A stretch of DNA of 64,000 nt, taken from positions 23,755,604 through 23,819,603 of the forward strand of contig NC_088645.1 in assembly GCF_964019385.1 (NCBI RefSeq), read 5' to 3'. Below, piece by piece: positions 1-55,262 of the stretch (within the stretch, counting starts at the first letter, position 1; each line of letters begins with the position of its first letter). The notes under the pieces were generated by a model. It was not told the DNA's origin. It worked only from the letters and a program-made list of their open reading frames with translations, and searched no databases. The stretch comes from Sycon ciliatum. Its lineage: Eukaryota; Porifera; Calcarea; Leucosolenida; Sycettidae. The translations under genes and the position numbers were made by a program.

Positions 1-1705
1 GTGACCCATCGAACTATCGGCCCGTGTCACTTCTTCCAGTTGTTTCGAAGCTGCTGGAGAAAATAGTACATCTTCAACTGGTTCGTTACATTCAAGATCA
101 TGCTGAGCTTCATATCCTCCCCGATGAGCAATTTGCTTACCGGCGAGGGCACTCCTGTAAGGATGCTCTTGCTCTTGCGGTTGACCGCTGGATGACAAGT
201 ATCGACAAGCAAGAGTGCGTTGGTGTGGTCTTTGTCGATATGAGCAAAGCGTTCGATAGGGTGCGCCATCAACTCCTTCTTAATGAGTTGCGGTCGATTG
301 GCATTGGTGGTGTGGCATTGGAATGGTTCGCAAGCTATCTCCAAGATAGACGTCAGTCCGTGTGAATGGGCAGAAGGCAAGGAGAAGCCACAGAATGCAC
401 GCGTGGTGTCCCGCAAGGGTCAGTGTTGGGGCCTCTGCTATTCTCACTGAATGTGAAACATGTTCCTGGACTGCTCGAGCACGCACAGTCTCAGCAATAC
501 GCTGATGACATAGCCTTCTATCTCGCATCTAAGTCAATTGACCATGCAGCTTCAGCACAAACTAACAAGCGACTTGAACCTGCTACAGACATACATGTAC
601 CTGGAAAGTATTGGCCTGATCTTGAATCCCGTGAAAACGAAATTCATGGTGCTCCGGAGGAAGCCTCTTTCCCTCGCCCCAGATCTGGCCATTGCATGCG
701 GTGATGTCGATATTCCACCTTCCCCAACTACTCGGTATCTCGGTCTGATTATTGATGAGCACCTTACGTTTGAAGACCAGGTTGACCATGTTTGCACGTC
801 TGTTTATAAGAAAATAGGAGCGTTCCGACGATGCCGCCGCTCAGTAGATCATGCCACAAGACGCATCTTTTACTTATCCCTAATACAATCCACCATTGAG
901 TATGCCAGTAATTCGTATGTGCACTGTTTAACTGCACATCTGTATTCTCGCCTTGTTACACTAAGTCACACTGGTGTATGAAGAAGGTCTTTGGCCTTTC
1001 TAGGCGCACCCCAACTGCTTTCCTTTTGCAGCATGCTAAATTATGCTCACTGGAGTCTCGCCTCAACTTGCGACTTTTTGTCTTTCTGTTCCGATGTGTC
1101 AACAAGCTGACACGTCCCCTGCTTTCCTCTATGTTCACTCTACAATCAGCTGCTACTTGTACAGATAGGCGCACTAAAGGACAGTCCTTCTCCTCTATTT
1201 CTTTGCCTGCTGCTAAAACTAGATATCGTATTTTCTCTAATATAAGCACAATCTCCAATAATAGAACACCTTGGGGCGGCATTCAAAAAATAAAATGCTC
1301 AGTCTCCATTATAAGCACACTGTGTAAATTCATTTTCTGTACCGGCGAAAAACCCTGAAATGTGTGTGTCATACATGAATTTGGCATGGCAACATGCCTC
1401 TGAAATGAGGTTGAAATAATAATGGAACAGTCTCCAATAAAGGAACGTCTCCATTAATAGCACGGGGCGGAGGTGCATTGAAAAAATAGAGGACCGTGCT
1501 TATATTAGAGATAATACGGTATGGCATGTTCTCTGTTTCTTTTCTTGGCGCTGATCGGTGGAATTCTCTGCCTATGTTGTGTCGCCAAGCTGACCAACCA
1601 TCCGCTTTCATTTCGCTCTGCAAAGAGCACTTAGGGTTCCCTGTAAAAAGATGGCAACGTCTGTAGGAATTTCCCTAACAAAATAATAAATACTACTACT
1701 ACTAC
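1..1705 (+). pseudogene. Non-LTR retrotransposon (LINE) reverse transcriptase, decayed 3' part
   Basis: Reverse transcriptase of a jockey/CR1-like non-LTR element, cut by the window start. Visible motifs are FVDMSKAFD (palm motif A, about 229-255), GVPQGSVLGPLLFSL (about 402-446) and the catalytic YADD at 498-509. The frame is broken by an in-frame stop at 363-365, a frameshift near 520-540 and another near 978. A 294-bp inverted-repeat element (1226-1519) splits the C-terminal region. On its far side the typical LINE end resumes (DRWNSLP at about 1552-1573) and runs to a stop near 1660, followed by an A-rich (TAC)n tail near 1690-1705. It is a dead copy. Clade assignment is inference. Confidence 0.85.
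1226..1519. mobile_element. 294-bp MITE with CCGTA-type termini, TA target duplication, inside the LINE
   Basis: The left end reads TCGTATTTTCTCTAATATAA and the reverse complement of the right end reads CCGTATTATCTCTAATATAA, both followed by GCAC. TA flanks both sides (1224-1225 and 1520-1521). Removing the element and one TA joins the two halves of the reverse transcriptase in frame, which supports these boundaries. It shares the CCGTA start and TA target with the elements at 6176-6527 and 40462-40786. Confidence 0.75.
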
Positions 1706-1748
1706 TAATAATCTACGTGGAGATAAAAGTTTAATAATAGCTATGAAA

Positions 1749-1828
1749 AGTATGAATGCCGCAGACATCATTGGAAACACACAAAACCAAGCCGTGGCGA
1801 TGTGACTGATGTCTGCGGCATTCATACT
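1749..1828. repeat. Perfect 22-bp hairpin with 36-nt loop
   Basis: Positions 1749-1770 are exactly complementary to 1807-1828. No gene is associated. A (TAC)n stretch and a short ACATGT tandem run follow at 1825-1860. Confidence 0.8.
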
Positions 1829-1860
1829 ACTACTACTAGTACATGTACATGTACATGTAC

Positions 1861-2475
1861 AGCACAATCACATCACGGGGCAGCAAGCAGGGCCTACAAG
1901 GGGGCGGGGACGGGGGGGGGCGTTACCATGGTTGCAGTTCGCCGTAAAAGCAAGAGTACAACTTAACTATGAGTATGACCCGGGGTCAGGGGTCAGGGGT
2001 CAGGGCATGGACTCGTCAGAAAATGGACACGACAGCGCGTAGCTAGCTACAATGACTATGCATATGCTATGGCGCCAGTGCCAGCTGCATGCAGTGCCTC
2101 GTCTTCGGGCCTTTTGTCCAAAGATAAATCGAACAACGATCAGGCCAGGTCGAAGAGAAAGGACTTGGACCTTCTCTGTTCTTTTCCAATGAAGTAAAGT
2201 TGAAAGATGGTTCCGTGCTCGAGCGCTCAGCGGCTTATGAACTACAAATGCAGGACACTGACTGTTTCAACTTTGAGATGAGTGTTGGCAGTTACGGTTT
2301 TCCATTCAGTGACTAGACACCGCGATATTCGTCGTGACGGACGAAATGGGCTAGTGAAGGGAGTACGGCGATGTGTCACAAGTGGAGAGTCACGCCATGA
2401 CAAAGCAGGAAGCGTTTTGGCCAACGCCTGCACATATGCGCTCGCGGTGCGGCAAAGGTAGGTCTACGCCTAGTG
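1861..2475. other. No gene seen
   Basis: It holds a short GGGGTCA-type tandem run (about 1980-2006) and a G-rich stretch near 1890-1920. No coding or RNA feature was recognised. Confidence 0.5.
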
Positions 2476-2479
2476 TTAA

Positions 2480-3330
2480 AGGGGAAGTTAAGGCAAAAAT
2501 TAAAATTTCACCAGTTGTAGTCTTCGGGGTGCTGAGTCGAATGGTCTTGGTTCGGGAAAGCAGAGACGCTCCCTTCCTACTTGAATCCCAATCGAACTCG
2601 CGCACTTCCACCGAAACTGGGTGACTGCGCCCTACGAGATGGGGATTTGTATGCAAAATGTCACTAAAAGCGCCATTTCGTTCTTATAAAAGCACGGATG
2701 ACCGCGATTGGCCCATATGTTGTAGTCTTTTGGACGCTGAGTCGACTGGTTTTGGTCCGAAAAGGCTGCGATGCAGCGTTCGCCCCTAATTCCCAATCGA
2801 ACATGGTTGAACAAGCGGTCACGTGCTCCTGCGTACACCAGTCACCTGGTCACCGTGCCTGCAGGGTACAACTTACGGCCTGTTTTGACCTTTTTTGGGT
2901 GCAGTCCTGTCACTCGAGTTGAACCTTGGTGTGAAAGTTGTCGCCTGCTGGCGTGGTGACCAGGTGATTTTGGCACCCAGGAGCACGTGACCGCTTCTTC
3001 AACCATGTTCGATTGGGAATAAAGGAGGAACGCTGCATCGCAGCCTTTTCGGACCAAAACCAGTCGACTCAGCGTCCAAAGGACTACAACATATGGGCCA
3101 ATCGCGGTCATCCGTGCTTTTATAAGAACGAAATGGCGCTTTTAGTGACATTTTGCATACAAATCCCCATCTAGTAGGGCGCAGTCACCCAGTTTCGGTG
3201 GAAGTGCGCGAGTTCGATTGGGATTCAAGTAGGAACGGAGCGTCTCAGCTTTCTCGGACCAAGACCATTCGACTCAGCACCCCGAAGACTACAACTGGTG
3301 AAATTTTAATTTTTGCCTTAACTTCCCCTT
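2480..3330. mobile_element. 851-bp palindromic TTAA-target element (Kolobok/T2-like MITE)
   Basis: The element is bounded by TTAA at 2476-2479 and 3331-3334. Termini are AGGGGAAGTTAAGGC and its reverse complement. The two arms (about 2480-2870 and 2940-3330) are inverted copies with scattered mismatches around a ~70-bp centre. TTAAAGGRR-type ends are known for the T2/Kolobok group, so assignment rests on termini and target only. There is no transposase frame; short frames here are mirror images of each other. Confidence 0.85.
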
Positions 3331-3334
3331 TAAT

Positions 3335-3692
3335 TGATTGATTTTATTTGGATTCGCGAGTCCAAACGAGCAGGAGTGCTCAATAACAGGGTAGCGAATC
3401 ATGTGGTTGAGTTGTTGTGTTGTGTTCTAATGCCTGGTCCAAACTTGCCCGATTTTCCGGCCGATACTCCCACACCGACTCCGACAAGAAATCGACCGAC
3501 TGTGTCGGATGAGTCGGACTAGCTGTTCACACACAACGGTCGCCAATTTCGCTTGTACTATAGTTGTATGCTTGTCTGTTACACACTTACACGTAGCACA
3601 CAGCCGCGCTAGACCGCAGTAGACGCTAGACAGCGGAAATGAGATAGTTTTTACACGAGCTACAAGGCGAAATGCGTGAAAAGGCTAGCGTC
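3335..3692. other. No gene seen
   Basis: Unique-looking sequence between two inverted-repeat elements. No coding or RNA feature was recognised. Confidence 0.4.
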
Positions 3693-3694
3693 TA

Positions 3695-4078
3695 CAGTCC
3701 ATTCAGAAAAGGTTGAGCGCTGGCTCTGGAGAGCCCCTGTGTTTTGGCGATTTTGTGGTACACTGCAGCGCCGCGCGATTCGAAACTTGAAAAAGGGTCT
3801 AAAAAGGCACCTCAACTGGGATTCGAACCGCAAATGTACTGTTATGCAAGTGGAGTGAACGGCCGGGATTTTCATGGTTTTTACCCAATTCAGTGCTTTG
3901 GGGGCAAAACCTGGCCGAAATCCTATTCTTGTTATGGCTTGCTTTTGGGAGAAATAGGCTTCAAAAACACAATTGGAAGAGCATTCCATGGGGGATTGCC
4001 AAAAAAAGGAGACGAAAACTCAAAATTTGACCTGTTTATGGCCAAAAGCTAGGATATCAACCTTTTCTGAATGGACTG
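3695..4078. mobile_element. 384-bp MITE, Tc1/mariner-like
   Basis: Perfect 22-bp terminal inverted repeats start CAGTCCATTCAGAAAAGG. TA lies on both sides (3693-3694 and 4079-4080). The CAGT start and TA target fit non-autonomous Tc1/mariner elements. No transposase is present. Confidence 0.8.
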
Positions 4079-4080
4079 TA

Positions 4081-4750
4081 GTAGCGATCCAGTGCAGTGC
4101 AGCCAGTTCACAGTCTGCACCGACGCTCTCCGCTGTCATGGTGAAAAGCCTACAATGATTGGCCCGATGCCCGCTCCATCACGTGCAAGCACTAAAAACC
4201 GGCTGGCTTTTCGGCTAAATATCGACCAGTTGATACTTGGCCGAAAACTAGTGCGACGAGAAAATCGCCGCAGATCTGTTAGAAACCTGTACGACAAAAC
4301 CGTCCACAACGGGCAATTTTCGCCCCGATCTTGAGGATTTTTCGTACAAGTCCGTATCGGCCGGAAAATCGGCCTACTGTGAACCAGACATTAGAGTCAA
4401 TAGACATGGTTAGCAGTGTACCGTTCACGCTATCTTCGACCATCGGTCCGTAGACCCTACCGTTTTTTGTGTGTTTGCAAGACATGGTTAGCATTTTGGT
4501 TCCTGACACAACGATCGACTCGTGACGCAACCCTAGTTGGAATCTTACCGTTTCGTTCTCCCGCTAAACAGAGCTTTCTACAGGGATCGATTTACTTTGA
4601 TTCTTTTGCATAGCAATCACTGCTACACACAGCTTTATAATTGACTAGCAACTCCCAGTATTGATTAGCAGTTTTCCTTCATCAAAAGTTTACATGACTT
4701 GTATATCTGTACAATAGCAGGATTTTGCACAGAAGAGGACAAAAGCTGCA

Positions 4751-8654: not shown

Positions 8655-8731
8655 GCTCAACGTCGTGGCTCCGTCGGTAGAGCATGAGACTCTTAATCTC
8701 AGGGTCGTGGGTTCGAGTCCCACGTTGGGCA
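8655..8731 (+). tRNA. tRNA-Lys(CTT)-like, probably a pseudogene or SINE head
   Basis: The anticodon arm TGAGA-CTCTTAA-TCTCA gives anticodon CTT (Lys). The T arm GTGGG-TTCGAGT-CCCAC is intact. Acceptor strands GCTCAAC and GTTGGGC pair in full, with one G-U. The D stem GCTC/GAGC is intact, but six nucleotides separate the acceptor from the D stem where two are normal, so the gene is 77 nt rather than 73. ACCA follows directly (8731-8734), that is, a genome-encoded CCA. The insertion and the CCA suggest a retroposed copy rather than a working gene. Confidence 0.7.
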
Positions 8732-14073: not shown

Positions 14074-16286
14074 TGTTCCTATAACGGGTCGGTTTGGGTA
14101 TTCTCCCTATAGCGGGTCGGTTTGAGTCGCATATATGGACAGCTCAGAGTGCAGTGCAAGAGGTGCATATCGTATGCCTTATAGACACAAAATAATAGCT
14201 AGCTAAGAGTACACAGGGTCATGTACACTCTGTGCTTCAAATAAGCAAAAAAGCAGATGTAGAAGGTCAACTAAATAAAGGAGAACTGAAGATCAGAGGA
14301 TCAACTAAAGGTTATGGTTACGCAATGCATATCAGAATATTCCCGTAATCTAAACAATAAATGCCGTTGCGCTCCACGTGCAGTGCAGAATCTACACATG
14401 TACAGAGTAAACACGCATGCGTGTATTTAGGAAGGAGATGAAACACCTACTGTTTCGAAACAAGGAGTTACTTCGTTTGGTTTCTGGAAGCCGTGGAAGT
14501 TGACCGTCCTTCTCGGTCTCGTGCCTCGATGGATGCCTGGGTTGGTGCGTTCCTGACATGACTACCAGCAAAGGAGCCGACTGGCGATTCGTCGGTGTCG
14601 ACAATGTCGTACAAGCGGAAGAAATTCTCTCGACGCAAAGCAGCTACGCTCCCCCTATGCCACTGCGTCATCAGTGCCGCTGTGCCGGCTGCTCCGCCTA
14701 GGTTTACAGCTTTCTTGTAGTATACAACGTCTCCTACAGCATGCTCAAATGGAAATTCCTCTGGCGTCCATGCGAGCTCGAGCGGGTATGCTGCTCCTGT
14801 CTCTGGTGCTGTCGGCTGTGGCTCCTGCTGGCCTAAAGGAACGTCCTCATCGTCGACCTCATCATCGTCATTTGCTTCATCGGCCAAGTTCAGGTTTCCC
14901 TGACACTGGAGAAAGTCCTTCTCGTCTGTGGTCAGATTACAGCGCTCCTGCTCGCGAAACAAGGAAAAGTTTGGCCTCTGGAAATACATCTCGTACGGAG
15001 TTTTCCCGTGTAGGCTTCTGTGGACGCGGTTGTTGTAGCTGTAGTAAAACAGCGGCAGACGATCAGGCCAATTTATATCTTTCAGCAGGTCACGTCTTAG
15101 GAATTGCGCCAGTGTCTGGTTGAAGCGCTCTACCCGGCCTTGACTTTGTGGGTGATACGGTCGGCCGTTGATCTTCTGTGCCCGCATCTCGTCCATGAGT
15201 GCCGACAAATCACCATTGTTGAATTCTTTCCCGTTGTCCGTTTGGAGAATTCTTGGAGGTCCGTACAAGTACATCGCAGAAAGGATCACGCGGCACACTT
15301 CCTTCGCAGTTTTGGCTCTGATGGCACCACCCATCGCGAATCGGCTGTGACAGTCCACAATATTACAGACGTATTGGAAGCCTCGACTCGCTGGGAGCTT
15401 TTTCAAGTCCATTTGCCAGCGACTGTTCGGGTAAGTGGCCTTTATTGTTCTTCGTACCAACGTTGTCTTGGGCAAAGGATTCTGTCGGGCACAGTGCTCA
15501 CATTCGAGTGTTTGGCGCAGCAGTTGCAGGACTGTCTCTCGGATGATAGGATAATACGAACACCGTAAGGATTCGTATATCGTCTCGGGTCCCCGATGAT
15601 CAATACTATGTTCTTCTGCAATCTTGCTGATCAATTCCTCCCTTGAGATGCATTTCCTGTGCGCAACGTTTAGCTCGTTTGACTTGTAATAGAGTGCGCC
15701 ATCCTCGTAGAAGAATCTCTCAATAATTTTCTTGATACGTTGTTCATTAAGACTTCCATAGTTTCCATCTTCTACCAGCTGTTTCATTAGCCTCGCTGCT
15801 CCCCACGCTTTGTTCAGAGCTCTTGCCTTGCAAACTAGTATACACTCATCTAGGCCTGCCCAAAACGTTTCTGCATTTCGATCTTTTGTCTTTGATTTTA
15901 CCCTGCTCGTTTTCCGTACTGCAATTCCACTGCCCTCCGCCTCCATCATGCTCTCCCCCTATTCTTCCATATCCATCTTCGCTTCAGTATAATACATTAA
16001 TAGTAATAGTAGTCTTGGTATAACCCATCCCTCATCTCTTTCACAAGATCAATAGTTCCTTCCGTTGCCTGTTTTCGTGTGAGTGCGAAATTGAGTCCCG
16101 GGGTCATGGGGTCAATGAGGATTTCCTGGTTCTTCCATTTCCGTTATACAAGGTCATGGACCCCTTGCACTCAGAGGACCCAGTCAAGACGTCATGTGTG
16201 CACTTGCATGACTTCCTTTTTTGGTCAAACCCGCCCTGCTATAGGGAGCCGACCCGTTATAGGGGCCGACCTGTTATAGGGACCCA
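14074..16286 (-). mobile_element. Ginger-like DNA transposon with intact integrase
   Basis: The ends carry inverted, tandemly repeated copies of CCTATAACGGGTCGG. On the left these are CCTATAACGGGTCGG and CCCTATAGCGGGTCGG (14079-14131); on the right are their reverse complements (about 16230-16284). Between them lies a single integrase gene on the minus strand and no gag, protease or reverse transcriptase. A Gypsy-type integrase flanked by terminal inverted repeats is the defining layout of Ginger1 transposons. The exact ends and the 4-bp target duplication could not be fixed. Confidence 0.65.
14468..15949 (-). CDS. Ginger/Gypsy-type DDE integrase (transposase), 493 aa
   Basis: Uninterrupted frame of 493 codons. 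Residues ~125-170 hold an HHCC zinc-binding N-terminal domain (HSIDH.. and CEHC). The DDE core follows: Asp in WQMDLKK (~residue 191), Asp in LQTDNGKEFNN (~250) and Glu in HPQSQGRVERFNQ (~288), with the usual TPYEMYF ending. The C-terminal part is acidic and low-complexity (~370-410). Such enzymes cut and join element DNA ends in the nucleus. The intact frame, alone between inverted repeats, suggests recent activity. A solo integrase half of a Gypsy element is the alternative. Confidence 0.85.
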   Translation of the reverse strand: MMEAEGSGIAVRKTSRVKSKTKDRNAETFWAGLDECILVCKARALNKAWGAARLMKQLVEDGNYGSLNEQRIKKIIERFFYEDGALYYKSNELNVAHRKCISREELISKIAEEHSIDHRGPETIYESLRCSYYPIIRETVLQLLRQTLECEHCARQNPLPKTTLVRRTIKATYPNSRWQMDLKKLPASRGFQYVCNIVDCHSRFAMGGAIRAKTAKEVCRVILSAMYLYGPPRILQTDNGKEFNNGDLSALMDEMRAQKINGRPYHPQSQGRVERFNQTLAQFLRRDLLKDINWPDRLPLFYYSYNNRVHRSLHGKTPYEMYFQRPNFSLFREQERCNLTTDEKDFLQCQGNLNLADEANDDDEVDDEDVPLGQQEPQPTAPETGAAYPLELAWTPEEFPFEHAVGDVVYYKKAVNLGGAAGTAALMTQWHRGSVAALRRENFFRLYDIVDTDESPVGSFAGSHVRNAPTQASIEARDREGRSTSTASRNQTK

Positions 16287-20099: not shown

Positions 20100-21360
20100 A
20101 GTGCGTGCGGACTGTGCAGGTTGCGCCACAGCGTGCATGCAGGCACTGTACGCATTCTTGTTTCTTGCCATTTGAAGTCATGGCCATGGATATTAAGGGA
20201 CCCCTACCTCTAACTGCTCGTGGTCATAAACCCATTCTACTGGTTGGTGACTATTTTTTTCTAATTGGGTCGAGATTATTCCTGTTCAGGATTTGAGAGC
20301 AGAGACGGTTGCGGGCTTTTTCGTCAATCGTGTATTCATGAATTTTGGTGTCCCTCGCCAATTGCACTCTGACCAAGGCCCTAATTTTGGGAGTGGCCTT
20401 CTGTCATGCCTTTTTAAGTTGTCGGGGGTGTGTAAGTCCAGCACGACCCCGTACCGGCCTCACTCTGATGGCTTGGTAGAGCGTGCAAATCGCACCATTC
20501 AGATCGCTCTTCGTGCATACGTTGACGGTGCCCAAGCCTCCTGGGATAGACATCTTTCCCTGGTGCAATTTGCGTACAATACCGGGGTCCACCAGTCCAC
20601 CGGGTTTACTCCCCATTTTGTGCTGTTTGGAAGGGAAACCTGGCGTATACCCATGGACTTATTCTTACCTCCACCTAATACCCCTGTGGAAGCCCGTTTA
20701 CCCGTCCGTATACATGTCTTATCTTCAGTCGTCTTTGGGTCGGGCTTTTGGATTTGTACGTGATCGATCGCCTTGCTGTAGCACGCAGGGTGGCTAAGGC
20801 AGTGTATGATCGGCGAACTAAGCTACTCACGGTCTAACCTGGCGACTATGTTTGGCTCCACGCTGTTCCGCCCCTGGGTCCAGTCCTAAGCTGTTCCGCC
20901 CCTGGACTGGCCCGTGGCAGGTTGAAGTAGTCAAGGGAGTTGTGTGTGCTATTGTTCGGGTGGGACCTCCTCCTTCACCCCGACATTCTAGGCGCCTGAC
21001 TGTTCATGTGGATCGGTTGAGGGTGCTGCAGGGAAAGGCAGTTTTTCCCCCAGGGGTTGCAGCTACCGGGCCCACACCTGAAAGACCGGCGGTTCCCTCC
21101 ATGGGTGGGCCCGCTCTATTTCTGCCGGCCCCATTTGCGCCACTTCTTGTGGCGCCGGTCCCAGGGTTGGTTCAGCCCCTGGTTCCCTCCCTACACCTCC
21201 CCCATCTCTTGTAGTCGTGCCCCTGGTGATGCTCAGGGTTCTCCTCCCTTGGTGGGCAGTCCGTCAGTTACCCCGGCCCCTAGTCCTCCGGATCCCTCCC
21301 CCCCCCCCCACCCAGGTTCCCCTTCATTGGCAGGTAGTCCGTTGGTGACCCCAAACTGAG
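20100..21360 (+). pseudogene. Gypsy retrotransposon integrase and 3' end, decayed
   Basis: Integrase with the first catalytic Asp in MAMDIKGPLP (~20185), a frameshift near 20255, then LHSDQGPNFGSG (~20362), PYRPHSDGLVERANRT with the catalytic Glu (~20452-20500) and QFAYNTGVHQSTGFTPHFVLFGRE (~20565-20637). The frame breaks again near 20720. Beyond it come GPWQVEVVKGVV and HVDRLRVL (GPY/F-like tail), then a Pro-rich end to ~21357. A purine-rich stretch at ~21428-21446 could be the polypurine tract before a 3' LTR, but no second LTR was found. Confidence 0.8.
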
Positions 21361-23999: not shown

Positions 24000-24349
24000 G
24001 ATAAATTGTGCACTCATAACAACAGCAAAAATGAAGAAAGTCAAGTTCCATAACGTTTTCTTGTGACTGTCATCAGTGGAACGCCGTCACATAAAAATGT
24101 AATAACTAAAACACACACTTATATACATGTAGCTAATATGGTTTCAGGTAGAAATACAGCAGCTAACAAAATACAAAAAGCGAAGTTTGCACCTTTGCAA
24201 TGTGTGAATATAGTGTATGTGAGAAAGGTAGTGGCAGATGAATGTGATACTGTGTGAATGAATGTAATGGTGCGTGTGACAGTCACAAGAAAACGTTATG
24301 GAACTTGAATTTCTTCATTTTTGCTGTTGTTATGAGTGCACAATTTATC
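24000..24349. repeat. Inverted pair of a 74-bp retroposon end with hammerhead-like core
   Basis: Arms 24000-24073 and 24276-24349 are nearly identical in reverse complement (GATAAATTGTGCACTCATAA at the outer ends). Both arms contain GTCACAAGAAAACGTTATGG. The left arm, read on the minus strand, is preceded by GTTCCACTGATGA. Confidence 0.8.
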
Positions 24350-24504
24350 TGTAATAATAATAAGAAGAAGAAGAAAGGGTTTGCTCCCCACACCGGAGCT
24401 CGCGCTATTCCGCCGACTTTACTTGACACTTGACTGACTCACGACTGCCATCCAGAGCACACGAGAAGTCCATCGAACCTTCGACTCGGCAAACCTGCAA
24501 GAAA

Positions 24505-24544
24505 CTGATGAGGGGTGAATTCCCCGAAACACTGTGTATTGAGC
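24505..24544 (+). ncRNA. Hammerhead ribozyme core, copy A (stem I 5' strand lost)
   Basis: CTGATGA at 24505-24511, stem II GGGG/CCCC with loop TGAATT (24512-24525), GAAA at 24526-24529, short stem III ACAC/GTGT, then TA and TTGAGC. The upstream GCTCAA strand is replaced by AAGAAA at the palindrome junction, so this copy should not fold fully. Confidence 0.65.
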
Positions 24545-24723
24545 AGGGAGTGGTGCTTTCTTGCAGGTTTGCCGAGTCGAAGGTTCGATGGACTTCTCGT
24601 GTGCTCTGGATGGCAGTCGTGAGTCAGTCAAGTGTCAAGTAAAGTCGGCGGAATAGCGCGAGCTCCGGTGTGGGGAGCAAACCCTTTCTTACAAATCATC
24701 GCCGAAGTCGCAACCACTACTTC

Positions 24724-24829
<106 letters not shown>

Positions 24830-25008
24830 GAAGTAGTGGTTGCGGCTTCGGCAATGATTTGTAAGAAAGGGTTTGCTCCCCACACCGGAGCTCGCGCTAT
24901 TCCGCCGACTTTACTTGACACTTGACTGACTCACGACTGCCATCCAGAGCACACGAGAAGTCCATCGAACCATCGACTCGGCAAACCTGCAAGAAAGCAC
25001 CACTCCCT

Positions 25009-25053
25009 GCTCAATACACAGTGTTTCGGGGAATTCACCCCTCATCAGTTGAG
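25009..25053 (-). ncRNA. Hammerhead ribozyme, copy B
   Basis: Read on the minus strand: CTCAA, CTGATGA (25048-25042), stem II GGGG/CCCC, GAAA, ACAC/GTGT, TA, then TTGAG. Stem I has five pairs; a two-nucleotide insertion separates it from the sixth. All core nucleotides are intact. Confidence 0.75.
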
Positions 25054-25125
25054 AGCTTGAGTAGGCTGAAGAAGATTGTGCCTAAAAAGCACCACTTAAT
25101 TAGTTATATAGTGCTCTCCAGGCAC

Positions 25126-25640
25126 TAGGCCTCGACCAAATATGCTTGCGCATATTTCCGCATATTTTGTAAGACAGTTCATATATGGCATATTGAGCGA
25201 CAAAGGGAATATTGGAATAGCCAGCATATAATTCAAATATTCTGAAGAAAATGAAGACAAAACATTCATATTATGGACAAAATGCGTTCAGAAATGCCTT
25301 TTATGGATGAATTTGGAATGGTTGAGGCGTTTGCTACATTTCCCCATGGATGAACACTATCGCTACTGTTGCTGGGGACACACCCCAGCCATACAATTCC
25401 GCATGTGTTTTGATTTGCACCATATTAAAGCATGATAGCCGTGAAGCCAAAGAATATTCCAAGGTTGTAATTTTACTGAAATGATCTACACTTTCTGCTT
25501 ATGTCGAGCATATTTTGGCATATTTTGGCATATCTTTTTCCATATCTTGCTAAACCTTTGGCATATTATGGACGTTTTCCCTGATATGCGACGAGCATAA
25601 TAATTATGCTCTTTTTTTTAGCATATTTGGTGGAGGCCTA
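25126..25640. mobile_element. 515-bp hAT-like MITE with 8-bp target duplication
   Basis: The ends are TAGGCCTCGACCAAATATGC and its near reverse complement (..GCATATTTGGTGGAGGCCTA). Exact 8-bp direct repeats CCAGGCAC flank it at 25118-25125 and 25641-25648. The interior is rich in GCATATTTT motifs. An 8-bp duplication is the hAT hallmark. It inserted into the hammerhead cluster after that cluster formed. Confidence 0.85.
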
Positions 25641-25803
25641 CCAGGCACAAACAAATGACTCACGCTGCTATCTGGTGTTCACAAGGTGTTTGTCGTGCTG
25701 GAAACGGAGCGTCTCTGTAAGTTTGTATCCCTGGTGATGTTTGTGCCTGGAGAGCACTACATAAGTGGTGCTTTTCAGGCACAATCTTCCTCAGCCTACT
25801 CAA

Positions 25804-25849
25804 GCTCAACTGATGAGGGGTGAATTCCTCGAAACACTGTGTATTGAGC
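25804..25849 (+). ncRNA. Hammerhead ribozyme, copy C (complete)
   Basis: Stem I GCTCAA (25804-25809) pairs with TTGAGC (25844-25849). CTGATGA lies at 25810-25816. Stem II is GGGG/CCTC across TGAATT. GAAA is at 25831-25834. Stem III ACAC/GTGT has a minimal loop, and the cleavage dinucleotide UA at 25842-25843 precedes stem I. This satisfies the type-I hammerhead consensus except for the weak stem III, which is typical of copies that act as dimers or concatemers. Confidence 0.85.
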
Positions 25850-26005
25850 AGGGAGTGGTGCTTTTTTGCAGGTTTGCCGAGTCGAAGGTTAGATGGACTT
25901 CTCGTGTGCTCTGGATGGCAGTCGTGAGTCAGTCAAGTGTCAAGTAAAGTCGGCGGAATAGCGCAAGCTCCGGTGTGGGGAGCAAACTCTTTCTTAATAA
26001 TAATA

Positions 26006-27340
26006 ATGTAATGTGCATTCCCTACAGACCCTGAGCTCTTCTTACAAGGTCCCCAAGGTGACGTACCACAACAGCGACAGCACCAAGAGTAGGTAGGTTT
26101 GCCACGAATAACAGCCACACACAAACCCACGGGCATGCATGCAGCAGAAAAAAGCACTCCGCCTCCCTCGACATTTCCCTCCAGGAGAGGCAAATTGTCG
26201 CTCGCATTCAGCTTGCAATTCGCTAGGGTACAAGACTACAAGTAGATTTCGGGGTAAATTATCATTATTATTTTGTTCAATTTTTTTAGGGCAGTCTCCA
26301 CAGACTCAAAGTCTTCCTTCAGGGTACCCTAAGAATGGAAGTAATGCTTGTAAATCATAATGCATCGTCACACGCATTTGCCGGGTATTTGCGGGCAATG
26401 ACTGGAGGGTCCTGTAGCATTCACATTCTTCGCAGTTTCCTAAACCAAAATTTAGCTGTACATGTACTGAAGTATCAGTATTGGAACAAACCACAACAGC
26501 GCGTAGATGTGCTTGTTAGTTTCCAGTGTGAGTTTGAAGCCGGGAGAAGTGGTTGAACGGTATCTGCCGACATAAACACTAACATCCGTACCACAGCTTG
26601 GGAAGGGAAAAGAAAATGTGCGCGAACTATGTCGCACGGCAATAAAAGAATGTCGATGATGAAGACCATCGCTTGCTTCCCTTCCTTCATTGGAACGTTC
26701 CCCGCCTGAGCCTTCCAAGATGGAAGGCTGTAATTTTGTGCTTGGTCGATGGCCCGATGGGTAGGAGCTAGGTGTCACGTCGTCGCATGTCTAAGTACCC
26801 TCACCAGTTTTGTGCCTTATTGTCGCACTATCTGGCTGTATAATCTCGTTACCTTGGTGGACTGTTATTCATGCAAGCACTTCAAGAAACTTGTAACATT
26901 TTGCTCCTTCCTCTTAATATAATTCATGATTTTTTCCCGCCAGCCGGCTACTATCATTTCGTCTTGGGGGTTAGACAAGGGGAATTAGCCATGTAGGGGC
27001 GTGAGCCACCTTTCGGCACCGGGAGTTGCAGCTCGCTCGACTTGACTCTAATGAGTGCAGAGGTTATTCATGAATGCCATTGGCTCGCCATCTGAGTCAT
27101 CTATTATTATAGAACGTTTCCTCGCAGACAAAAATGCTAGACATTTTATATGTTGGTGTTGAAGAGCCTGCACTTTGTGCTCTTTTCTAGTGTTCCAGCA
27201 TTATACTTCATTCTTCTTCTTCCCTCCACCCACACCTTTCGTTCCTCCCACTTCTCTTTAATGTCGTCTTCAAGTAAGTTGAAGTAACAAAGAAAGCAGG
27301 AACTGCTTGTAACGTTTGCGATATGGCAATGAATAAAATG
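26006..27340. other. No supported gene
   Basis: It includes a retroposon tail on the minus strand (about 26245-26334: CCCTAAAAAAATTGAACA with AT-rich tail), related to the stretch at 53984-54042. No exon was recognised. Confidence 0.4.
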
Positions 27341-27344
27341 CAAT

Positions 27345-28330
<986 letters not shown>

Positions 28331-30358
28331 CATTCGAAGTCGTTCCCAGCTGTCATGTAGAACAACAAAGGTTAACTTGAGACCGAAGATTTTTGGCTAA
28401 AACAACCTACAAGCGAGGAAGCCCCGGTTTTATCACAGGTCTTTATCAGCCACGAGTTGCGGCAGGGCCAATCTAATGTCGCGATGATTCAGATTGTGCA
28501 GGCATGTGTAGAATCCCTTGATTTAGGCTTAGGCATGTGGAGAATCCATAACGGTAAATACAAACCTCCAAAATGACCAAATACAAATGTGCCTGAATTG
28601 ACTCTCAGTCTCTCACTCATACTTAAAAAAAAGTACAATGTGCATATATGTACAGACCAACAAGGACAATCAAGGCTTGTTTTTTGCTACTTATAGTTTC
28701 ATGCTTTCGCAATCATCACTGCAGGCAACTGTGCACATCATGTATAAAACTGTTCGAACTATGGAGTGGTCTTCCAGTGGAGTGAAGAAGGCACAAGAGA
28801 GAAATGAGGAATGACTCAAGCCGAATTGCTAGTCAGTACGCACGGGTCCATATTTAGAAATCTAGGCAACCTATTGACGCCATTCACGTGCTAAAAAGTG
28901 TAGTCGGAACGGCATTATGGGGGAACAGGGAGTCGTAACACTGCCTGGCGAGGAGCTGCTTAATGCTTGTGATAAAGGTGGACTCAGCACCAGGAGCTCC
29001 CACTGCCACAAAGACACCACCGCCACACGTCAGTCACCTCAAGGTCATGAACCAAAAGCATGCTAAGGCCTGCGCGCCTAAACCCAGGACGACATTGCTG
29101 GTACCTGTATATTTAAGTTCATGGACACAACATTTACCCCATTATCATCATATTATCAGTCGTTATGGCTGCGACCAGTGCACCAGATCCAGTCACCCTT
29201 GGCCATCTGCGCGGCTCCAACGTCTTGCACCCTGGACGATCCGTCGAACCGCCGAGATGCCTATCGATGCCCTGCGGTCATTCGAGCTAGCGCAGGCATC
29301 CACAGTTGCTTCGTGAGTTTACGGAAAGGCTCCTGGTCAAGTACCCGTAGTGTGACAAGCTTCCTTGCTCCCCATATTGCCGTCTCGAGAGCAGCTAATG
29401 TATACAGGTTACGGCTCTCTCTACCACACCGGATCAAATTGCGGAGTTACCGGCATTTTAGACATGTATGTGGGCACTTGAAGTTGCATTACTTCCGAAA
29501 TGCTATTTTGTAGAACTTGGGAGAATCATGCGCAGCGCATGAGCGCATTGAGTGGTGCATGTTCGGTGGAACTTGACACGGTTCGTTCTTCGATACGATT
29601 ATATTTTGGATTTAAATTTCATTCCCTCAAACTTTTGCCTTTCGACGGGGGACTACTGGGTTCATGCTGTCTCTAATAATTATTTTCATTTCACGAAAAT
29701 GATGGTGATAGTCACCTGTATTAATTAGGATGTCCCCAATGCTAAACTGCCTATCTGTAGGGAGGGGGGGGGGGGTTGTTCACCTCTTCACCGTACTTGC
29801 ATGCAATTGCAAGTGTCACAATACACACGCCACGGGCGCATCCTTTCCAACATATTGGGAAGGAAAACACTACATTTGGGTGCCGAAGCCGCCATACATG
29901 TAATAATTGGTAAGCCGAGCGTCCCCTTTGTAGCCCTGGTGATTTTGCTCTAGGACCGTCTAAATGGCAACTAGTCGATTGCAGAAACTCACACACGTAG
30001 GGTAGTTGGCCTACTGATATCAAGTTTTGACTTCATGAATTCATGGCTCTTTGATTCATTTGTACAGTGTCTTTCTGAATTCTGTGGCACCTGCATATGG
30101 TGCCAGTAATCACACCATGCATCCATATTCAGGTAGTGTCGTCCTCAACCGCCCACGTGCTGGCCCAAGTCAGAATCGGGTGGAAGAGGCGAAGGCAGTG
30201 GGATATCTTGAGAGCCTCCAAAGAGGTGTTTACAGTGCTAGGCTGCTAGCTAGCTGCATGTAAGGGGCAATTCTACACGAAGCATATTATTGTTCACTGG
30301 TTTGAGGGGAAGACGCGAACGGGAAGAGTCTGAAGAAAATAGTACAAAACCTCACTAG

Positions 30359-31913: not shown

Positions 31914-32719
31914 GCTACTTTGCCGGCATTCCCTACTTGTACTATACACCTGCTCTCTATCTGGAGTTGTCGTTACAGCTGGGTGTGGGGAGGACGCCCC
32001 TATTATTGGCTCCTTCGACTCATGTCGATCGCGATGTGATCAGTTTGGGCTGCAAATGCGTGCTGACGGCATAATCCCCACAACCCAAGTTACTCAGAAG
32101 TCCAGTCGCAAAACGAAAGAGTACTATGGCGACCCTGATCTACTGACTCAATGGCTGTCTTCGTGCATAACGCTTCGTTGAAAGGCTTGGACGCGACTGA
32201 TTTGTCCCACCCGCACTGCAAGGACTCCTACCCGCCCCACAATATGTGCGTTGCGGGCCCACTGGAGTTGCGATGCGGCGCGCACGTCCGTGAACCTACT
32301 TGAACCTCTGTCCAAATACGAAAACCAAGCCAGGACGATACAGCCGGCACTGAACCTTTGTGTGCCAAAAAGAAGGAGCTGATCGACAGTTTCAGTTGAC
32401 GTTGTGAGCGGAGCAAACACGGAGGCAAAGGTCGAACGATGGTCGCTCCAAAAGGCGGTGATAGGGAGTGGTCCTCCTCCATACTGCAGGCAGTGCATGG
32501 ATGTATTGTCCACGTATGGCCCTTATGGATGAACCAGGTTTGTGAAAGGCACCTGAGCACGAACCGAGTGCGAAAACGATCGCCATTTTCATTCCGAAGA
32601 AGAGTCGAGGCCCCCGAGCTCGGGAATAACTGCGGTGTTTTCCGCGATTCTTGGCAGAACAGAGTTTCCTTTGCGGAGGCGGTTTTCAAGCGAACTCTCT
32701 GCTGTCAACTCAATCTTAC

Positions 32720-39074
<6,355 letters not shown>

Positions 39075-42165: not shown

Positions 42166-42482
42166 TCACTGTTTACATTTTATTATTATTATTATTATTA
42201 CGAAGTAGTGGTTGCGACTTCGGCGATGATTTGTAAGAAAAGGTTTGCTCCCCACACCGGAGCTCGCGCTATTTCCGCTAGTCGGCGGAATAGCGCGAGC
42301 TCCGGTGTGGGGAGCAAACCTTTTATTATTATTATTATTATTAATGAAGTTGATTGTTCCAACTAGGAACACACGCTTCTTGCCGAACTTGACACTTGAC
42401 TGACTCACGACTGCCATCCGGAGCACACGAGGAGCACGTCGCACCTTCCACTCGGCAAACCTGCAAGAAAGCACCACTCCCT

Positions 42483-42528
42483 GTTCAATACACGGTGTTT
42501 CGGGGAATTCACCCCTCATCAGTTGAGC
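42483..42528 (-). ncRNA. Hammerhead ribozyme, copy D
   Basis: Minus strand: GCTCAA (42528-42523), CTGATGA (42522-42516), stem II GGGG/CCCC, GAAA, ACAC/GTGT, TA, then TTGAAC. One C-A mismatch weakens stem I; the core is intact. Confidence 0.75.
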
Positions 42529-42777
42529 TTGAGTAGGCTGAGGAAGATTGTGCCTGAAAAGCACCACTTATATACTGCTCTCCAGGCCAAACCATCACCA
42601 GGGATACAAACTTACAGAGACGCTTTGTTTCCAGCGCGACAAACACCTCGTGAAGCTCCAGGTAGCAGCGTGAGTCAGAGTCGCTCATGGAGTTGTGATA
42701 AACAGACGTTGAGAGCCAGTATAGCTATTCACAACGCTGTCACCTCCAACAACTAGTCGCACGTCAGCCTACTCAAG

Positions 42778-42823
42778 CTCAACTGATGAGGGGTGAATTC
42801 CCCGAAACACCGTGTATTGAGCA
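42778..42823 (+). ncRNA. Hammerhead ribozyme, copy E (complete)
   Basis: Stem I GCTCAA/TTGAGC (42778-42783, 42818-42823), CTGATGA 42784-42790, stem II GGGG/CCCC, GAAA 42805-42808, stem III ACAC/GTGT with loop C instead of T, UA at 42816-42817. All consensus positions are intact. Confidence 0.87.
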
Positions 42824-43014
42824 GGGAGTGGTGCTTTCTTGCAGGTTTGCCGAGTGGAAGGTGCGACGTGCTCCTCGTGTGCTCCGGATGGCAGTCGTGA
42901 GTCAGTCAAGTGTCAAGTTCGGCAAGAAGCGTGTGTTCCTAGTTGGAACAATCAACTTCATGACTATTACCGCCGAAGTCGCAACTTCTAAGTTCGTATT
43001 ATTATTATTACGCA

Positions 43015-43215
43015 CACACTCATGGCCAAGGCCAATCAAGGAGGAGGTGAGGGCGATTATAGCCAGCCATGGCAACAAAAAAAATACTGTTTCACTCTGC
43101 TGATGGGCGGCCCAGGTCCGAAAATTTGGTGTTCCCCATTTTTGTGATGTTTGCAGCGAAGAGACTGTGATTGAGTGTTTGATTTGAGGGAACCTTACAT
43201 GATTCGTTAATCGCA
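43015..43215 (+). pseudogene. LINE reverse transcriptase C-terminal relic
   Basis: Frames read THSWPRPIKEEVRAIIASHG and then HFCDVCSEETVIECLI, the Cys-containing tail seen after many LINE reverse transcriptases. A related piece is at 23830-23900. Confidence 0.45.

Positions 43216-44078: not shown

Positions 44079-55262
<11,184 letters not shown>

Follow-up and report, generated by a model that had tools for sequence, protein, structure and literature searches.

The hammerhead motif considered here is found at 25804..25849 of the window, i.e. of the whole stretch of 64,000 nucleotides of DNA from the calcareous sponge Sycon ciliatum that was analysed. It lies in an insertion (W2) composed of two arms of opposite strand, both built from one repeated unit, in which position 1 is the first base after the cleavage site and the hammerhead corresponds to about 437-477 and 1-6. 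The outer ends of such insertions are of two kinds, called tail and no-tail. The hammerheads, the insertions and the repeats which accompany them in the window are as follows.

24371..24726: insertion W1; minus arm with unit 151-19, plus arm with unit 442-477 and 1-187
24725..24828: (TAA)34 microsatellite between W1 and W2
24827..26004: insertion W2, delimited by unit mapping, which holds the hammerhead at 25804..25849; tail end left, no-tail end right
From 24827, minus strand: minus arm of W2; unit 187 to 1, then 477 to about 370
25009..25054, minus strand: hammerhead of the W2 minus arm, the second in this insertion; its core is at 25048 and its stem I has 5 bp
25126..25640: unrelated MITE nested in the left (minus) arm of W2, seen in the sequence by its inverted ends TAGGCCTC/GAGGCCTA and an 8-bp duplication CCAGGCAC
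25656-26004, plus strand: plus arm of W2, after the junction; unit 290 to 477 and 1 to 160
25796..25858, plus strand: hammerhead including the outer extension of stem I, CTACTC/GAGTGG, as predicted by folding the RNA of the family unit and transferred to the window by eye
25804..25849, plus strand: type I hammerhead, from the sequence and a descriptor scan; predicted cleavage after A 25843
42199..42323: mini-insertion W3, in which unit 187-110 on the minus strand adjoins 105-148 on the plus strand
42336..42997: insertion W4, a member of subfamily B with its no-tail end on the left and its tail end on the right; the minus arm is at 42336-42761 and the plus arm at 42764-42997
42777..42822, plus strand: hammerhead of subfamily B; stems of 6, 4 and 3 bp, with a frame opening at the ATG within CTGATGA

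The MITE, which we take to be hAT-like, judging from its inverted ends and its 8-bp duplication, split the left arm of W2 later than the insertion of W2 itself. The arms of W1 are identical over 133 positions. In W2 the arm difference is 4.2% over 261 positions, which is among the larger values, and this comparison points to W1 as the younger of the two neighbours. The core of W1, at 24505, is missing the 5' strand of stem I.

The window also holds an SRF-type MADS-box gene, apparently split between exons (32630-33358 and 33667-34245, with PF00319 in the first frame and none in the second), a protein kinase exon on the minus strand (46219-46770, PF07714) and two frames with an integrase core domain (PF00665) at 14468-15958 and 20251-20763, probably of retroelements, the second being below the curated cut-off. 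Further, an Rfam tRNA match of 43.7 bits, possibly a tRNA-derived repeat, is found at 8666-8723 without a report by ARAGORN, and a long (CAACAG) array of 143 copies with 97% matches at 27473-28332. Another inverted pair, of 73 nt, 99% complementary and 204 nt apart (24000-24072 and 24277-24349), does not match the hammerhead unit.

The hammerhead motif: sequence, folding and conservation

The hammerhead at 25804..25849 consists of a stem I of 6 bp (GCTCAA/TTGAGC, 25804-25809 paired with 25844-25849), the core segments CTGATGA (25810-25816) and GAAA (25831-25834), a stem II of 4 bp with one G-U pair (GGGG/CCTC, loop TGAATT) and a stem III of 3 bp with a 3-nt loop (ACA/TGT). The core bases are conserved, the three stems are present and stem I is open, as in type I hammerheads, and the sequence is exactly what an earlier note on this DNA had described: a complete type I hammerhead with a six-pair stem I and a minimal stem III. 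When the family unit is folded, stem III is indeed minimal, but stem I is longer than that note had it, six further pairs (25796-25801 with 25853-25858) being formed beyond the internal loop AA/AGG, so that stem III is the only minimal stem.

The motif is not a product of chance, since a descriptor scan (stems I, II and III of at least 5, 3 and 3 bp) detected 3 sites in the window and 0 in 200 simulated windows with the dinucleotide frequencies of the window, and since the family's 27-nt core, at most 3 mismatches being allowed, was found 5547 times in the 538 Mb of genome searched (2822 forward and 2725 reverse), against 0 and 0 for the reversed pattern. Five looser cores occur in the window, all from one repeat family, among them one that lacks the 5' side of stem I and another whose stem I has a mismatch. 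The Rfam covariance check proposed in the earlier note gave no match to the hammerhead families, either at gathering scores over the whole window or up to an E value of 10 for 24700-26100; this says little about the motif, because the same models also missed the hammerhead-like motifs of two Penelope copies in the same genome (L059 and L060). The Rfam models, as far as tried here, do not detect motifs of this kind in this genome.

Self-cleavage of this hammerhead is possible, being predicted from the motif. In the predicted minimum fold of the 46-mer, stems I and II are formed and stem III is absent, and for a stretch of 62 nt the active fold has -12.3 kcal/mol vs. -17.9 kcal/mol for the minimum fold; in these models, the active hammerhead fold is not the predicted minimum. 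The action as a dimer, also raised in the earlier note, is conceivable and draws slight backing from the co-fold of two copies, which is about 3 kcal/mol better than two single copies and in which the two strands of stem III are paired, but the core bases are paired as well, and the predicted two-molecule fold is for this reason not the active form.

As regards conservation, the hammerhead is marginally the slowest-changing part of the unit: when the six loci chosen by their hammerhead are left out, the differences among copies are 4/1119 in the hammerhead vs. 38/4022 (P = 0.06). The selection on the core which had been suggested is thus favoured by the hammerhead being the least-changing part, but only at this marginal level. 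Between subfamilies A and B, the most conserved stretch comprises some 109 bases around the hammerhead, with one difference.

The repeated unit and the architecture of its insertions

The unit has a length of about 477 bp, three direct copies of 300 bases recurring at 477 bp with zero differences in L031, and a GC fraction of 0.53. It contains a TATATAA stretch at unit 392-398 and encodes no helper enzyme, a frame with RT and GIY-YIG domains being absent. The arrays are both tandem and head to head. The earlier placing of the motif inside a repeated unit of the retrozyme or Penelope kind is supported, but the duplicated unit noted around the hammerhead is one arm of a head-to-head insertion, and the two-armed architecture and the Penelope-type ends had escaped that note.

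Subfamily B is 89% alike to subfamily A over the longest alignment (333/375), differs from it past position 100 and has one frame from the ATG inside CTGATGA. A genome search with the subfamily B peptide, in which 150 of 9432 candidates were scored, revealed tandem copies spaced 475-476 bp and a commonest open frame of 96 aa (about 60 of the 150 matches), and in many tandem copies the frame begins at the ATG of the hammerhead core (window 42774-43020 and peptide search). None of these 150 scored matches lies at the listed Penelope places; one of them, C14:18806057, is inside a frame of 1790 aa. The relatives outside this genome, in a search itself restricted to short proteins, are unnamed and short. 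The frame may encode a small independent protein, or be what is left of a Penelope N-terminus. An autonomous element, considered on account of two hammerheads 5.5 kb apart in L052, was rejected, the structure being a subfamily B insertion broken by an LTR retrotransposon.

Insertions were mapped with the unit in 31 sources, matches of 85% identity or less being dropped, including old copies in L036 and L050. Loci L031-L050 had been picked by likeness to the window copy (40 of 1629 first-look candidates scored), whereas for L053-L058 an exact hammerhead core and a minus-plus neighbour had been required, and two arms are expected in these. The mapping gave 41 insertions, 34 two-sided and 7 one-sided; among them, the two-sided L052 begins at the edge of its stretch, and two one-sided insertions (the first of L030 and the second of L046) also end at an edge. 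In the 34 two-armed insertions the minus-strand units are on the left and the plus-strand units on the right, an order which is partly built in, because a minus arm coming after a plus arm was assigned by rule to a new insertion. An independent check on the 100 listed hammerhead places of C1 (exact matches) gave, for neighbours less than 2 kb apart, 15 minus-plus, 12 plus-plus, 11 minus-minus and 0 plus-minus pairs. The arms comprise from 23 to 4345 matched bases and their starts at the central junction are variable.

The outer ends, by contrast with these variable starts, fall at two places: the tail end at unit 183-188 (about 187; 177-181 in subfamily B) and the no-tail end at unit 148-160 (112-153 in subfamily B). 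One end of each kind was found in 33/33 two-sided insertions with both ends visible, the tail being on the left in 18 and on the right in 15, while the 7 one-sided insertions have a tail end (2) or a no-tail end (5). Genome-wide, a search limited to exact subfamily A ends beside A/T runs, which misses other ends, found 608 tail motifs (control 0) and two kinds of no-tail motif (284, control 26, and 198, control 0). Among the 37 inward pairs of such ends on C1, 35 have one of each kind, 2 are no-tail/no-tail and 0 tail/tail; shuffling of the labels reached 35 one-of-each pairs in 0/100000 cases, and outside the mapped loci (three pairs in L041, L042 and L058 set aside) the proportion is 32/34. 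In 15 of the 37 pairs the starts of the two end motifs are less than 132 bases apart, and the insert consists of little else than its ends. The sequence CGAAGTCGCAACCACTACTTCG, with the two ends about 35 bases apart around it, folds in one stretch tried as a stem-loop (163-187, at the tail end) with an A/C-rich loop, which is absent from the fold of a longer stretch.

Some plus-then-minus neighbours lie only 12-100 bp apart (L030, L032, L038, L045, 24726/24827 and 42323/42336), with facing ends alike in 6/6 (4 no-tail/no-tail, 2 tail/tail); on C1, facing ends of such neighbours less than 100 bp apart are alike in 1/3. These neighbours may have arisen in one event of a more complex kind, or by independent insertion into the same microsatellite.

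Perfect target duplications of 12-15 bp were read at seven non-repetitive targets (L027, L028, L031, L033, L034, L037 and L049), for instance CTTAACCCTTTACT in L031, CAGAGTACATTATA in L028 and ACATTATAATGTA in L037. Duplications were scored for 30/41 insertions, of which 3 are without duplication and one, the first of L030, gave a spurious match lying within the element. Elsewhere the target is often a (TAA)n or (TTA)n repeat, as in the window itself at 24725-24828, and the lengths of duplications in (TAA)n are ambiguous. The flanks have 67-97% A+T (30 insertions scored).

The sequences of the arms carry information on their template. Pooled differences amount to 0.80% inside insertions, 0.81% between arms and 3.04% between insertions, and the arm difference per insertion has a median of 1.4%, with values above 3.04% in 4/26 (L039, L047, L053 and W2); in the 26 insertions with at least 60 comparable positions, the arms have diverged in 23 and are identical in L031, L058 and W1. 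Variants with respect to the family consensus are fixed across the full units of both arms, at 6 columns in L033 (8 units) and 12 columns in L048 (5 units). Moreover, same-strand spacing is constant within each of the 4 arrays that have at least two such intervals (four of 480, three of 479, two of 479, and 477 in both arms of one array) and ranges from 476 to 482 between arrays, a lone spacing of 442 (L055) being a shortened unit. From these uniform units, fixed variants and constant spacing, it appears that in most insertions both arms were copied from a single template sequence. A minority base common to at least two units was also found, at 1, 4 and 2 columns in L033, L035 and L048, respectively, a pattern that a single circle would not produce unless exchange or repeat mutation followed.

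Finally, the starts of the arms at the junction show no pile-up at the cleavage site (2 within 3 nt vs. 0.92 expected), and two apparent starts at position 1 (L031 and L032) are really about 3 and 16 nt upstream of it. The arm starts are denser at unit 266-305 (17/73 in 40 nt, reached in 15/2000 simulations, with several at 286-290), a density that could come from a transcription start or an enzyme pause.

Penelope-like elements and the proposed origin of the insertions

The same genome contains Penelope-type elements, represented by a frame of 807 aa with a GIY-YIG domain, the relatives of which carry RT domains. At least 57 matches to the Penelope protein were found in the genome (56 of 3573 candidates scored), most of them without stops and many over about 800 residues. 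Some of the listed copies are in tandem at 2935 bp, neighbouring listed copies within 6 kb are minus-plus in 5 cases and plus-minus in 0, head to head like the short element, and two truncated copies meet at exactly the base C11:4910390. A region of C1 (78524354-78538508) contains five tandem stop-free Penelope frames with 2935-bp spacing and equal scores. The hammerhead-like motifs of the Penelope stretches L059 and L060 are unlike the short-element hammerhead in sequence, and in the three stretches read (L051, L059 and L060) no Penelope copy sharing the hammerhead or the end sequence of the short element was found.

The insertion of Penelope elements has been studied with the purified enzyme of Anolis (PAc), which, according to the available part of the source (PMC11167929), cleaves an AT-rich target and extends its two strands; synthesis begins at two neighbouring internal sites within an AC-rich stem-loop, which accounts for a tail of 30-40 bp, and in vitro the strands showed no difference in start site. 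As far as described in the available part of PMC3846280, Penelope copies of Adineta vaga may stand head to head; a tail of 31 bp is optional on one inverted pLTR, and the duplications are of 8-10 bp. For animal retrozymes, cut and circularised units have been proposed as templates and Penelope elements as candidate helpers (PMC7229834, in part). To judge from sequence, the end signatures of the sponge element match those of Penelope-like elements closely.

The hammerhead at 25804..25849 belongs to a non-autonomous, retrozyme-like element of Sycon ciliatum which is probably moved by a Penelope RT and GIY-YIG enzyme, with both target ends primed. A multi-unit transcript would be made, to which the TATATAA stretch may point, and its hammerheads would cut it to units closed into circles, as the motif and the published animal retrozymes suggest. 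A Penelope enzyme would bind this RNA near unit 150-187 and make a staggered cut in AT-rich DNA, where AT-rich sites and duplications are indeed seen. Both target 3' ends would then prime on the RNA, at about 187 and about 152, the end structure being observed and the order and the enzyme presumed. Both cDNAs would run along the RNA, often for several units, presumably rolling round a circle, and be joined head to head at a variable point, which is the structure found in the insertions.

The template is best read as one multi-unit or circular RNA with one start site per target end. In a more specific form, which we consider quite possible though short of probable, the two subunits of a Penelope dimer would extend both 3' ends of one staggered cut on a single circular ribozyme RNA, the cDNAs rolling round it and joining head to head; each subunit would be tied to its own start site, 35 nt apart, and for this reason nearly every insertion would have one tail and one no-tail end. 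The sponge arrays, with uniform units mostly alike in both arms, fit a circle template. Points against the Penelope explanation as a whole are the two no-tail/no-tail pairs among the 37 on C1, the lack of arm starts piled up at the cleavage site, the 4/26 insertions with arms more than 3.04% apart, the shared minority bases in L033, L035 and L048, the partly built-in order of the arms, the fold-dependent stem-loop at the tail end, the failure to find the hammerhead or the end sequence in the three Penelope stretches read, and the behaviour in vitro of the Anolis enzyme, for which hammerhead mutants and strand made no difference to insertion and start site, respectively. The same Penelope priming of two strands might also use a long uncut multimer transcript, the hammerhead being a passenger or having another role; this is possible, if somewhat doubtful. 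In its favour, PAc hammerhead mutants inserted equally well in vitro (PMC11167929, in part), and one arm of L035 passes through nine cleavage sites. The one-sided insertion L049, which begins at unit 288, continues across two hammerheads, and between its two copies of 288-477 there are 5 differences, all transitions; the denser arm starts at about 266-305 point the same way. Within an insertion, however, most units are almost identical and the two arms agree in unit length, which makes the transcript of an ageing array an unlikely source unless the array was homogeneous, and the hammerhead block, which would be no more than a passenger or have some other role, is the most conserved stretch between the subfamilies.

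Other explanations concern the inverted structure itself. Self-priming, in which the first cDNA folds back and copies itself with an inverted repeat as the result, has been put forward for rotifer Penelope elements (PMC3846280, in part) and would agree with the arms starting within 25 nt of each other in 8/34 insertions (3.6 expected), but with a simple fold-back both arms should start at nearly the same point, which is not so in 26/34, and the two unlike outer ends, both adjoining the target duplication, are left unexplained, so that it appears improbable. Inverted arms with a target duplication, and small versions resembling MITEs, would also be produced by a foldback DNA transposon or a MITE with long inverted repeats, an origin made very improbable by the unequal arm lengths, the tandem units, the fixed end difference of about 35 nt and the one-sided copies. 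Palindromic joins of long reads in the assembly could account for the perfectly identical arms of L031, L058 and W1, but hardly for arms diverged in 23/26 insertions, for duplications which flank the whole structure, or for W2 and L052, which carry another element in one arm only; such an artefact is the least credible of all.

Relation to known elements and significance

The animal non-LTR retrozymes, as described in the available part of PMC7229834, share with the sponge element a type I hammerhead per unit, tandem units, a non-autonomous nature and duplications of more than 4 bp. Their units are of about 170-400 nt with less than 50% GC, whereas the sponge unit is of 477 nt and 53% GC; in addition, the sponge element is two-armed and head to head, with unlike ends, unlike the retrozymes described there, and the word 'inverted' is absent from the main text of that paper. 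Since unit size and GC are outside the described range, the sponge element is here called a retrozyme-like variant and not a typical member. Plant LTR retrozymes, as told in the same source (their own paper being PMC4918200), are also non-autonomous, with a hammerhead and a circular RNA, the sponge hammerhead being type I and its circle presumed; they differ by a type III hammerhead and 4-bp duplications, and they have LTRs with PBS and PPT, which would be a further difference.

With Penelope-like elements (PMC11167929 and PMC3846280, both in part), the shared features are a hammerhead in a repeated end region, head-to-head inverted copies, a one-sided tail, an AT-rich target, a staggered cut and an internal start of reverse transcription. 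The PAc reading frame starts at stem II of the hammerhead, and the frame of subfamily B, at the ATG inside the hammerhead, is close to this arrangement (PMC11167929, in part). The ends lie about 152 and 187 nt after the cleavage site in the sponge element vs. 85-92 in PAc, from the positions given in that paper. Further differences are the missing RT or endonuclease frame, a unit of roughly one sixth of the 2935-bp spacing of Penelope copies and the many units per arm. The sponge element is not itself a Penelope element, because it is too short for an RT and GIY-YIG frame.

Terminons are Penelope-related elements with minimal type I hammerheads, and the sponge hammerhead is likewise of type I with a minimal stem III; they are, however, giant elements attached to telomeres, unlike the sponge element. 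They are named in the available part of PMC7229834.

Hammerhead retrozymes, Penelope tails, head-to-head Penelope copies and, as a proposal, Penelope-driven retrozymes are already known. No description of two-armed multi-unit retrozyme insertions, or of a rule of one tail per insertion, was found in the literature searched, most subscription papers being outside it.

In the thousands of copies of the short element in the sponge genome, the two cDNA starts and the point at which the cDNAs were joined are preserved. The rule of one end of each kind turns the optional one-sided tail into a near-strict asymmetry for which every mechanism has to account, and it suggests that two polymerases are coupled on one RNA. 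The structure of the insertions supports the view, already published as a proposal, that animal retrozymes are moved by Penelope enzymes, and the insertions bear on how Penelope-like elements insert and on the role of their hammerheads.
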